64,000 bases of DNA from Neomegalonema perideroedes DSM 15528 (GTDB taxonomy: Bacteria > Pseudomonadota > Alphaproteobacteria > Rhodobacterales > Rhodobacteraceae), in NCBI RefSeq assembly GCF_000374145.1, contig NZ_KB893653.1, positions 977,923-1,041,922 on the forward strand, read 5' to 3'. Below, piece by piece: positions 5,882-9,423 of the stretch. Made by a program: the position numbers and the translations under genes. The notes beneath the pieces were generated by a model, which was not told the DNA's origin, did no database searches, and saw only the letters and a list, made by a program, of their open reading frames with translations. How positions within the stretch are numbered: the stretch's first letter is position 1; every line of letters begins with the position of its first letter.

Positions 5882-5965
5882 GTTTGGCCGTTCGGACGCT
5901 TCAAGTTTTTGTTCGGCCGCGTTTTCGCGACGCGAAGCCGTTTCGGCCTCGCTGGAAAACGCTCA
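5882..5965. repeat. Structured intergenic repeat, copy A
   Basis: This roughly 84-bp element between convergent rodA and hisZG shares clear sequence with 32271-32355. Shared blocks are CGTTC..ACGCT, A(A/G)TTTTTGTTC, CGCG(C/T)TTTC(A/G)CGACGCGAA and CTCGC/TTCGC-(C/T)GGAAA(A/G)CGCTC. Each copy contains a stem-loop; here GCGAAGCC (5932-5939) pairs with GGCCTCGC (5945-5952) with one mismatch. It runs into the hisZG stop codon. This looks like a dispersed intergenic repeat that may also stop or process both converging transcripts. Confidence 0.6.
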
Positions 5966-7921
5966 GGCCCCCTTCAGCCGCGCCTCTAAAGCCTGAAGCG
6001 CCGTGGCCGCCCGCACGCCGATGGGGCGGGTCGTGGCGTAGAGACAGGCCTCGCTGGCCAGCATCGGCGGATGGGTGACGATCTTCAGATGATTGTCGCG
6101 CAGGGTCTCGCCGGTGGAGGTGATGTCCACGATCACATCCGCCGAGCCCGCCCCCGGAGCCGCCTCCGTCGCGCCGAGGCTCTCCACGATGACGTAGTTC
6201 ACCACGCCGCGCTCCTCGAAGAATTCGCGCGTGAGGTTGACGTATTTCGTCGCCACCCGCAGAGGCGCGCCCGTCGCGGCGAAGAGATGCGAAGCCACGT
6301 CGTCGAGGTCGCTCATATCCGAGACGTCGGCCCAGCATTGCGGCGCCGCCGCCACCAGATCCGCCCGTCCGAAGCCGAGCGCCGCCGCCTTGCGCAGCCG
6401 CGAACGCCAGTCCGCCACCTCCTCATTGACGAGATCCTCGCCGGTGACGCCCGCGTCGATCTCTCCGGCGGCGAGCCGATGGGCGATCTCGCCCGCCGAC
6501 ATCAGCCGCAGCTCGATTCCCTTCATGCCTTCGAGCCGCGCGGCGTATTCGCGGGCGCGGCCCACGTCGGTCACGGTCAGCCCGACCTTGGCGAAACGCT
6601 CCTGAAGCTGCTCGCGCAGCCGCCCCTTCGAGGGCAGCCCGAGCCGCAAAGGCGCATGATCGTCCGGCGCTTCGGCCAAGGGCGCGGCGGAGACGCTCGG
6701 GCGCGGATCGGGCGGCGCGATGAGATTGGCGAAGATGGTCGCGCCGATGGCGGGGATCCGCTGGGGGGCGCCCATGGCCTGAAGCAGCTCGCCGTAGCGC
6801 CCGCCGGAAGCGAGGATCTTCTCGCCGCTCCGCATGCGGATGCGGAAGAGGAAGCCGGAGTAATATTCCATCTTGGAGCGGAAGATCCCCCGGAAGCGCA
6901 GCTTATCCGCCGCGCCGATCAGGCGGTTCATGGCCTGGGCGCGCTTGCGCAGGGTCTCGACGGCGGCTTCCGCCTTGACGCCGGTCTCTTTGGCGAGGGC
7001 CTCCAGCCGGTCGGGGGCCTCCACGGCGGGACAATCGATGTCGAGCAGCCCCTCCATGAAGGCGAGCGAGGCCTGCGACAGCGCCGGAGCGAAGGCGTCC
7101 TCCGCCTCCTCGCGCAGCCGCCCGACGATTTCGTCTAAGGGCCGCTGTCCGATGAGCGGCCCGCCCGCCTCCTCGATGACGTCGGCGAGCACGGCGCGGG
7201 CTTCGGCGTCGGGCTCGCGGCCGGAAAGGGCGGTCAGAGCCGCGAAGCGCGCCACGCGGGGCAGGGAATCGATGAAGGCGAGGCGGCCCTCGCCGGGCCG
7301 GGAATAGCCCTCCATCAGGGCGCGGAACTGCGCGGGGCGCCAGTAATGCCGCCGCAGGCGCTGACGCCGGGCGCGGGGCAGGGCGGCGCCGTCGGTCAGG
7401 CGCAGGGCGTCGAGGGCGGCGTCGATGAGGGCGGTGTCGCCCATCTCCACCAGAGGCGCCGCCACGCCCGCCATGCGCAAAGCCTGAAGCGTGAGGGTCA
7501 GAGCCTCGACGTCGCCCTCGATTCCCTCGCTTCCGCCGAAGATCTCGAAGCCGACCTGACGCACCTCGCCGCGCTCGCGGCTCCAGGCGGGGCCGGAATA
7601 GGAATAGCGCCCCGCCGGAGCGGCGCCCCGCGCCATGCGCTCCAGATGATGCGTGGCGATGGGCACGGTGAAGTCCGGGCGCATGCAAAGCTCGCCCCCT
7701 TGCCCGTCGGCGAAGATATAGGCGTCGCCCCGGGTGCGCTCGCCATAGAGCCGCAGCATGGCCGAGGCGTCGAGCAGCGCCGGAGGGGCCACCACCGGGC
7801 AGCCCTGAGTCTGGAGCCAGTCGCGCATGGCCTTCTCGACGGCGTTCAGCCTTCCGAGCGCCGCGCCCGCGTAGAAATCGGCGGGGGCGGCGAGGGAGGG
7901 CGCGAGGGCGCGGGGGCTCAT
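5963..7921 (-). CDS. hisZG: Fused HisZ-HisG: ATP phosphoribosyltransferase regulatory and catalytic subunits in one chain
   Basis: First step of histidine synthesis (ATP + PRPP to phosphoribosyl-ATP). Residues 1 to about 400 form a HisZ domain, a HisS-like class II synthetase paralogue (motif pieces [39 protein letters not shown]). A Pro/Ala-rich linker of about 25 residues ([19 protein letters not shown]) leads into a complete short-form HisG from about residue 424 ([48 protein letters not shown]). HisZ and short HisG are normally separate polypeptides. The frame is open throughout and HisG has no Met of its own at the junction. The ATG overlaps the hisS stop (ATGA); a longer 683-aa reading would start inside hisS and is less likely. 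Confidence 0.9.
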
Positions 7922-9423
7922 TTCGCGTCTCCCTTCACGCGGGCGATGATCTCGCGCACCGTGGCGACCACCTCGCTGAAAGGAACCTCGCGCTGGGCGG
8001 GCTGAGCCTTCCATTCGTCGTTGGACGTGATCTGCGCCGCGAGCTGCGTCCCGAGCGCCAGATCCTTGATCTGCGCCACGCCGCGCGCCCGCTCGTCGGA
8101 GCCGACGATCACCGCCGCCGGAGCCGCGCGCTTATCGGCGTATTTGAGCTGCTTGCCCATATTGGTCCCGGAGCCGAGGAAGGTCTCGGCCCGGATTCCC
8201 GCCGCCCGGAGTTCGCCGCAAAGGGCCATGGTCTCGGCGATATGGGCGGGATCGAGGTTCAGCACCACCACCGGGCCGATGGTCTCCGCCCCGAGGGCGC
8301 CTTTGGCCTCCAGAGCCGCGAGCAGGCGATCCACGCCGATGGAGGCGCCCGTGGCCGGAGTCTTCTGCCCCGTGAAGCGCATGACGAGATCGTCGTAGCG
8401 TCCGCCGCCCGCCACCGAGCCGAAGCGCCGGAGCGCGCCTTTCTCGTCGCGGATTTCAAAGGTGAGTTCGGCCTCATAGACGGGTCCGGTGTAATAGCCG
8501 AGGCCGCGCACCACCGAGGGGTCGATCTTCAGCCGCTCCGGCCCATAGCCGAGCTTATCGAGGATCTCGGCGATGGTCTCCAGCTCCTGAACGCCTTCGA
8601 GCCCCGTCGCCGAGCCGCCCACCAATTCGCGCAAGCGCGCGCAGGTGGCGGCTCCGGTTTCGCGCTCCGCCGAAACGAAGCCGAGGATCAGATCCGCCTG
8701 TTCCTTCGCCAGCTTGGCGCCGGGGGTGAAATCGCCGGATTCGTCCTTGCGGCCCTCGCCGAGGAGCGCCCGCACGCCCTCTTCGCCGAGGCGGTCCATC
8801 TTGTCGACGGCGCGCAAGGTGATTCCGCGGCGGTTCTCTTGGGCCGCGTCCTCGCCCGCGAGCCCCGCCGCCTCCATCACGCCGGACAGCACTTTGCGGT
8901 TATTCACCCGCAGAACGTAATCCCCGCGCGAGACTCCCGCCGCCTCCAACGCGTCGGCGAGCATGGCGCAGATCTCGGCGTCCGCCGCGACGCTCGGGGC
9001 GCCCACGCTGTCGGCGTCGCATTGCCAGAATTCGCGGAAGCGCCCCGGCCCCGGCTTCTCATTGCGCCAGACCGGACCCATGGCGTAGCGCCGGTAGGGC
9101 GTCGGCAATTCGAGGCGATGCTGAGCCGCCACGCGCGCCAGAGGCGCCGTCATGTCGTAGCGCAGCGCCAGCCATTGGTCGTCCTCGTCGCGGAAGGCGA
9201 AGACGCCGCCTTCGGGACGATCCACGTCGGGCAGGAACTTGCCGAGGCTCTCGACGAATTCGAAGGCGGGGGTCTCCAGAGGATCGAAGCCGTAGCGATG
9301 ATAGACCTCCGCGATGCGCCCGAGCATCGCCCGGCGCGCCGAAGCCAAAGGTCCGAAGGAATCGCGCAAGCCTCGCGGCGCCTGCGCCTTCGGGCGCGGC
9401 GCGGGTTTCTGGGAAGCCGTCAT
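7918..9423 (-). CDS. hisS: Histidyl-tRNA synthetase
   Basis: Class II aminoacyl-tRNA synthetase, 501 aa, charging tRNA-His. Visible are class II motif 2 ([20 protein letters not shown]), the histidine-binding [14 protein letters not shown]-type segment ([14 protein letters not shown]), a GGGRYDDL motif and a C-terminal anticodon-binding domain (about 400-495). The N-terminus starts [18 protein letters not shown], a short basic extension. It heads a two-gene operon with the HisZG fusion, whose HisZ half is a paralogue of this protein. The 165-bp upstream gap to the divergent membrane-protein gene must hold the promoters of both. Confidence 0.95.

Follow-up and report, generated by a model that had tools for sequence, protein, structure and literature searches.

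Introduction

ATP phosphoribosyltransferase catalyzes the first step of histidine synthesis. The short form of this enzyme is described, in the available parts of two papers, as a HisZ tetramer sandwiched by two HisGS dimers, in which HisZ accelerates HisGS, while HisZ with bound histidine inhibits it (PMC9734150, PMC10795190). The background section of PMC9413887, as far as its text is accessible, names hisZ-hisG among the his genes that are fused in a variety of genomes, and the accessible portion of the review PMC1963479 lists five other his fusions, none of them with hisG. Table 1 of PMC9413887, in its available form, appears to assign the role of HisZ to HisG and vice versa. Within the accessible portions of the openly licensed literature, neither an experiment on a fused HisZ-HisG protein nor a mention of the Neomegalonema case was found.

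The window analyzed in this study is the 64,000-nucleotide stretch of Neomegalonema perideroedes DSM 15528 at positions 977,923 to 1,041,922 of contig NZ_KB893653.1. It contains a gene in which HisZ and HisG are joined. We regard this gene as most likely encoding a single-chain short-form ATP phosphoribosyltransferase that arose in place, in which HisZ would still activate and inhibit, and which is predicted to be tetrameric.

A single open reading frame encodes HisZ and HisG

The fused hisZ-hisG gene (5963..7921, minus strand) consists of 652 codons from an ATG start to a TGA end with no internal stop, and both domains lie in the same frame. The regulatory, HisS-like HisZ part (6719..7921, minus strand; residues ~1–401) matched PF13393 in two stretches, the best at residues 24–177. 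The NCBIfam models for HisZ span residues 26–400; NF008953 scored 216.2 bits, below its curated cut-off of 384, and TIGR00443 scored 108.4 bits, below its curated cut-off of 271.65, which this model exceeds in just 3 of 14 control genomes. The short-form catalytic HisG part (5966..6652, minus strand; residues 424–652) was identified by TIGR00070 (residues 425–628, 167.6 bits against a cut-off of 75.75), by PF01634 (residues 477–650, 124.7 bits against 25.5) and by phmmer. In the phmmer comparison with solved ATP phosphoribosyltransferases, the best match of the HisG half was the plant enzyme 6czl from Medicago, ahead of the listed bacterial short forms. HisG_C, the ACT-like C-terminal regulatory domain of the long form, was not among the Pfam matches of the fused protein; the HisG part is 229 residues long, with no other Pfam match behind the HisG domain. 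Between the two parts lies a linker of about 22 residues (6653..6718, minus strand; residues ~402–423) with low predicted confidence. The original prediction, a full HisZ and a short-form HisG in one 652-residue frame, is therefore borne out by the Pfam and NCBIfam domains and by the lack of an internal stop, on the minus strand, which the prediction had left unspecified; its domain borders also held (HisZ at residues ~1–401, HisG from 424), while the linker came out at about 22 residues rather than the 25 or so that had been claimed.

The gene upstream of the fused gene is hisS (7918..9423, minus strand; 501 aa). The hisS product carries both PF13393 and PF03129 and scored 377.5 bits with TIGR00442, above the cut-off of 286.75; by these matches it is an ordinary histidyl-tRNA synthetase. 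The fused protein, in contrast, had no Pfam match to the anticodon-binding domain PF03129 and scored only 65.8 bits with TIGR00442, under the same cut-off for histidyl-tRNA synthetase. The coordinates and the start codon place the hisS stop and the start of the fused gene in an ATGA overlap (7918..7921, minus strand), and the fused gene sits where relatives carry separate hisZ and hisG genes behind hisS.

No second HisG was found in the genome of the window, where PF01634 matched at one place only, and no second HisZ was found there either, TIGR00443 matching at two places that correspond to hisS and the fused gene. Genes for hisB and hisD were present, each above its cut-off. A separate hisG elsewhere, with the copy here degraded, had been named beforehand as an observation that would speak against the fusion; there is one HisG place in the genome and the fused frame is intact.

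Two AlphaFold2 models of the fused protein agreed with each other (pLDDT 88.2 and 88.0, pTM 0.81 and 0.82) and had both domains ordered. The first model was made from an alignment (A1) in which 30 HisZ-only rows were aligned across HisG, and the second from an alignment (A2) that leaves out three HisZ and ten HisG rows. In the two models, pLDDT was below 50 at residues 1–15, ~215–220 and ~408–414, and was 62–67 in the linker block. Foldseek matches of the A1 model included HisZ (3od1, 1z7m), many HisRS structures, and 6czm_A, the ATP phosphoribosyltransferase of Medicago, which aligned over 237 columns with an rmsd of 2.0.

Distribution of the fusion among relatives

The family search covered 394 genomes, 377 of which had a match, and the class search covered 385 genomes, 286 of which had a match; in both, scoring was limited to three candidates per genome, and matches were listed best-first. 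Among the matches listed, an uninterrupted full-length match was found in only two genomes of the family search, both Neomegalonema, and only in the window's own genome in the class search, from whose rows the second Neomegalonema assembly (G001) is absent. Joined matches over both halves in G334 (family search) and in G761, G750 and G446 (class search) contained a stop codon and were rejected as fusions. Long open frames before HisG, for example in G003, G301, G087, G132 and G099, were attributed to chance openness, HisZ lying there in another frame with a stop of its own. A scan of genome contigs yielded the locus of the other Neomegalonema along with two archaeal HisG loci, three in all. 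The phylum search took in 398 genomes, with HisG in 374, and by itself neither demonstrates nor excludes fusions; six of its listed rows, with open frames 400–675 residues long, were followed, and none had a HisZ match beside HisG.

The junction was read at loci L001–L088, representing 73 distinct sources (74 labels, as G001 appears under two names) that are mostly best-scoring matches and not a random draw. HisZ and HisG were separate in 58 sources and fused in two, both Neomegalonema; the other 13, among them G385 with its locus at a contig end, had no HisZ upstream of HisG in the stretch examined. Adjacent HisZ and HisG were accordingly read in 60 genomes, as two genes in 58 and as one gene in the two Neomegalonema, and the genes were separate in 51 of 51 family genomes outside Neomegalonema with HisZ beside HisG. 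In 52 of the 58 separate cases HisG was in the +2 frame with respect to HisZ; its start preceded the hisZ end by 4 bases in 46 of these and by 1 base in five. In two cases HisG was in the +1 frame, and in four, G334 (L036/L066), G761 (L085), G750 (L086) and G446 (L087), the genes were in the same frame and parted by a stop and a few bases. These four represent near-fusion arrangements; in G446 the nearest start is 48 bases away.

Since only the two Neomegalonema were fused among the genomes read, the fusion is most simply taken as a derived state of one genus. As judged from these sequences, the fused gene is the only HisZ-HisG fusion found in the sampled Alphaproteobacteria, unusual and apparently maintained.

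Two further observations were made on the arrangement of these genes. At ten loci (L012, L015, L019, L021, L025, L038, L041, L085, L086 and L088), an alphaproteobacterial HisG of 322–351 aa, about 90 or more residues over the usual 230, lies beside hisZ, at odds with a simple rule that HisZ pairs with short HisG; in the four of them that were scanned (L012, L021, L085 and L088), the extra length is mostly behind PF01634, and no additional Pfam match exceeded its cut-off. In Cereibacter sphaeroides, a 22-kb record labelled plasmid e (L131) carries hisS and hisZ; hisG is not in its incomplete gene table, though the protein match extends into HisG.

HisZ-HisG fusions in other lineages

A tblastn search of a plasmid collection with the fused protein matched 42 records. 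Among the best 30, which were examined, at least two gave single-piece matches running through the junction, in Collinsella aerofaciens (L129:2350-4065, WP_320677953.1, 571 aa, followed by hisD, hisC and hisB) and in Monoglobus pectinilyticus (L130:2170-3840, WP_320690599.1, 556 aa, followed by hisA and hisIE). A single-piece match in Staphylococcus epidermidis corresponded to two annotated genes, and in a Subdoligranulum match HisZ and HisG were in different frames. The two records L129 (NZ_OY725717.1, 900 kb) and L130 (NZ_OY725736.1, 518 kb) are labelled plasmids and carry his genes, L130 also dxs; our guess is that they are probably chromosomal pieces.

As in Neomegalonema, the Collinsella and Monoglobus proteins have HisZ followed by HisG, with PF13393 and PF01634 over their cut-offs in one frame; roughly 20 residues lie between the HisZ and HisG matches, and the HisZ part is ~320–330 residues long, compared with 400 in Neomegalonema. 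This order is identical in all three fusions and is that of the separate genes. In both the HisZ and the HisG trees, the Collinsella and Monoglobus halves were placed across a deep split from Neomegalonema, among rows of Bacillota and Fusobacteriota (in the HisG tree also among other Pseudomonadota). The different HisZ and HisG types on the opposite side of this split indicate that the Neomegalonema fusion is independent of the other two. In the HisG tree, Monoglobus paired with Ilyobacter (support 92) and not with Collinsella. These placements suggest at least two, probably three, independent origins of HisZ-HisG fusions. The rarity implied by the original prediction consequently stands for the family (2 of 377 matched genomes among the matches listed, both Neomegalonema) and fails beyond it, with fusions in Collinsella aerofaciens and Monoglobus pectinilyticus and a mention of such fusions in the available text of PMC9413887.

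In annotation, the Collinsella fusion carries the name hisG alone and that of Monoglobus the name hisZ alone; a pathway survey can therefore mistakenly score one of the two genes as missing.

Conservation of the two halves and histidine control

The second Neomegalonema assembly (G001; loci L084/L031) carries the same uninterrupted fusion in the same frame, and the two fused proteins align without gaps apart from the last residue. Between the two species, the HisZ part differs at 13 first, 11 second and 63 third codon positions, with 61 codons silent and 16 replaced, and HisG residues 424–634 differ at 7, 4 and 30, with 25 silent and 11 replaced. As silent codons outnumber replaced ones in both, each half appears to be under selection as a coding frame. 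The linker, which also aligned without a gap, has 4, 3 and 6 differences in 25 codons, with 4 silent and 6 replaced; with replaced codons in the majority, it looks like a spacer.

At positions conserved in at least 90% of relatives, Neomegalonema keeps 56 of 66 in HisG and 49 of 66 in HisZ, so that 17 of 66 (26%) are changed in the HisZ part. When each relative was left out in turn, the corresponding loss had a median of 2.9% and a maximum of 10.0% (L085) for HisG, and a median of 1.9% and a maximum of 29.5% (L087) for HisZ, where L021 reached 19.3%. The HisZ loss of 26% in Neomegalonema is therefore high but below that of L087, and the HisG loss of 15% exceeds that of every relative tested. 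Among the residues kept in the HisG part are P430–R434, R457, A557–Y560, G583–E586, D599, I600, T601, G604, T606 and L607; judging by position, R434 and R457 are possible counterparts of Arg32 and Arg56 in the Psychrobacter enzyme. The HisZ part keeps Y353, Y354, G356 and G373–Y376, forming YY.G and GGRY stretches that we take to be the histidine-site motifs of HisRS-like proteins.

With the HisZ models scoring below their cut-offs and 17 of 66 conserved positions changed, retained histidine control is uncertain. The HisZ half might no longer sense, leaving an active HisG free of histidine inhibition. The changed share far exceeds the leave-one-out median of 1.9% (yet L087 reaches 29.5% and L021 19.3%), and the path of HisZ to the root is longer than in relatives (see below), but the predominance of silent over replaced HisZ codons between the two species and the retained YY.G and GGRY stretches make this loss of sensing rather unlikely in our estimation. 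A HisZ half that still regulates is the reading we carry forward.

Descent and divergence of the fused gene

In quick trees, both halves of the Neomegalonema protein were of alphaproteobacterial type (SH-aLRT 100 for HisG and 95 for HisZ), and HisZ fell within its family (SH-aLRT 99). Three trees with distant outgroups, by contrast, placed the Neomegalonema HisG pair with moderate support (90/77; SH-aLRT 94; 86/83) outside its family and apart from the remaining alphaproteobacterial rows of this type. Long-branch warnings in the first of these named L087 and L114, not the Neomegalonema pair. A tree in which the pair was held with the family was not rejected (p-AU 0.389), and in a tree rooted on six alphaproteobacterial rows the pair was with the family, a placement forced by the rooting itself.

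Identity to relatives was 49% for HisG, against a mean of 65% among the 23 relatives themselves, and 35% against 50% for HisZ, whereas hisS showed 64% against 67% (22 rows). Root-to-tip lengths, compared with the means of 20 relatives, were 1.53 against 0.86 for HisG (sd 0.16, highest 1.05; about 1.8-fold), 2.37 against 1.60 for HisZ (sd 0.29, highest 1.99; about 1.5-fold) and 0.60 against 0.49 for hisS (sd 0.13, highest 0.71; about 1.2-fold). This comparison uses a single outgroup row and a single control gene, and it can be taken as acceleration only for a gene with descent inside the family. By these sequence measures, both halves are unusually divergent and the adjoining hisS is not. Under descent inside the family, both halves would have accelerated; for a HisG from another source, part of the length would be distance.

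The latter case, in which the fused gene or its HisG half was acquired from a different lineage and took the place of the resident genes, would account for divergent halves next to an ordinary hisS and for the outside position of HisG in the distantly rooted trees. It appears improbable, given that grouping of HisG with the family was not rejected, that the HisZ half lies inside the family, that the position behind hisS is the usual place among relatives, and that the Collinsella and Monoglobus halves fall elsewhere in the trees. Fusion of the resident genes in place is therefore preferred.

The linker and the integrity of the join

Neither of the two Neomegalonema linkers examined contains an in-frame ATG or GTG. 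A TTG at codon 425 is common to both species, and HisG could also, or mainly, be made from an internal start near this codon, giving free HisG in the cell; as inspection by eye revealed no Shine-Dalgarno-like sequence ahead of the TTG and the linker offers no in-frame ATG or GTG, we give such an internal start little credence, and a full-length fused product remains the expected one.

The isolate genome published for Neomegalonema (Meganema) perideroedes Gr1T was sequenced by Illumina, with a coverage stated in the accessible portion of PMC4511698 as 620.1x (table) and 108.2x (text). The published Gr1T assembly has 22 scaffolds, and the assembly analyzed here has 17 contigs with 3,409,949 bases and is rated 98.35% complete. 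Coverage of the second Neomegalonema assembly, a MAG, is shallow, at about 4.3-fold according to its contig name. That an isolate genome and an independent shallow MAG both carry the fusion makes an artefact unlikely, and the join between HisZ and HisG, as read from the two sequences, is very probably real. A sequencing or assembly frameshift that merged two separate genes is hardly credible: an indel could in principle join them, because HisZ and HisG are in different frames in most relatives, with the HisG start 4 bases before the hisZ end in 46 of 58 separate cases, and the second assembly is shallow, but the frame is identical in an independently assembled second species, the isolate was deeply covered by Illumina (PMC4511698, available part), and about 22 linker residues part the domains in both species with no overlapping stop and start remaining.

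Discussion

We propose that separate hisZ and hisG genes behind hisS would have been fused in place to give the Neomegalonema gene. The HisZ domain would bind histidine and would both activate and inhibit the tethered HisG. The hetero-octamer of four HisZ and four HisG would become a tetramer of identical fused chains, in which a flexible linker may let the HisG domains pair in the usual way. As four fused chains supply four of each domain, the simplest assembly is the known particle with tethers. The fixed 1:1 ratio of HisZ to HisG that was originally predicted follows from the single frame, provided that the cell makes the full-length protein. An altered quaternary structure or histidine feedback, also raised there, is a conjecture.

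A further-reaching version is possible but tentative: fusion would have occurred independently at least twice, probably three times, and in Neomegalonema the tether would have re-set the allosteric coupling, yielding an obligate homo-tetramer with activation and histidine sensitivity unlike those of the hetero-octamer and with halves that change faster than hisS. With a natural tether between catalyst and switch, the share of the HisZ effect that depends on assembly could be told apart from the share that stems from the contact itself. The convergent fusions suggest that permanent contact between HisZ and HisG is favourable or at least tolerated.

The separate HisZ/HisGS enzymes of Psychrobacter arcticus (5m8h), Acinetobacter baumannii (8oy0) and Lactococcus lactis (1z7m) have the two domains in common with the Neomegalonema protein, in which no long-form tail was found. 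Reaction and control are presumably also the same. The difference is that Neomegalonema has one chain with a linker of ~22 residues where the standard short form has two proteins. Gene order and place are as in the Rhodobacterales hisS-hisZ-hisG cluster, for example that of Paroceanicella profunda (L132), in which hisZ and hisG are separate. The other his-gene fusions hisIE, hisNB, hisHF and hisIED, listed in the available portion of PMC1963479, join different his enzymes or subunits. They likewise join genes of one pathway; unlike them, the Neomegalonema fusion joins a regulator to its catalyst. The HisZ-HisG fusion as such is already known, and Neomegalonema is a convergent further case.
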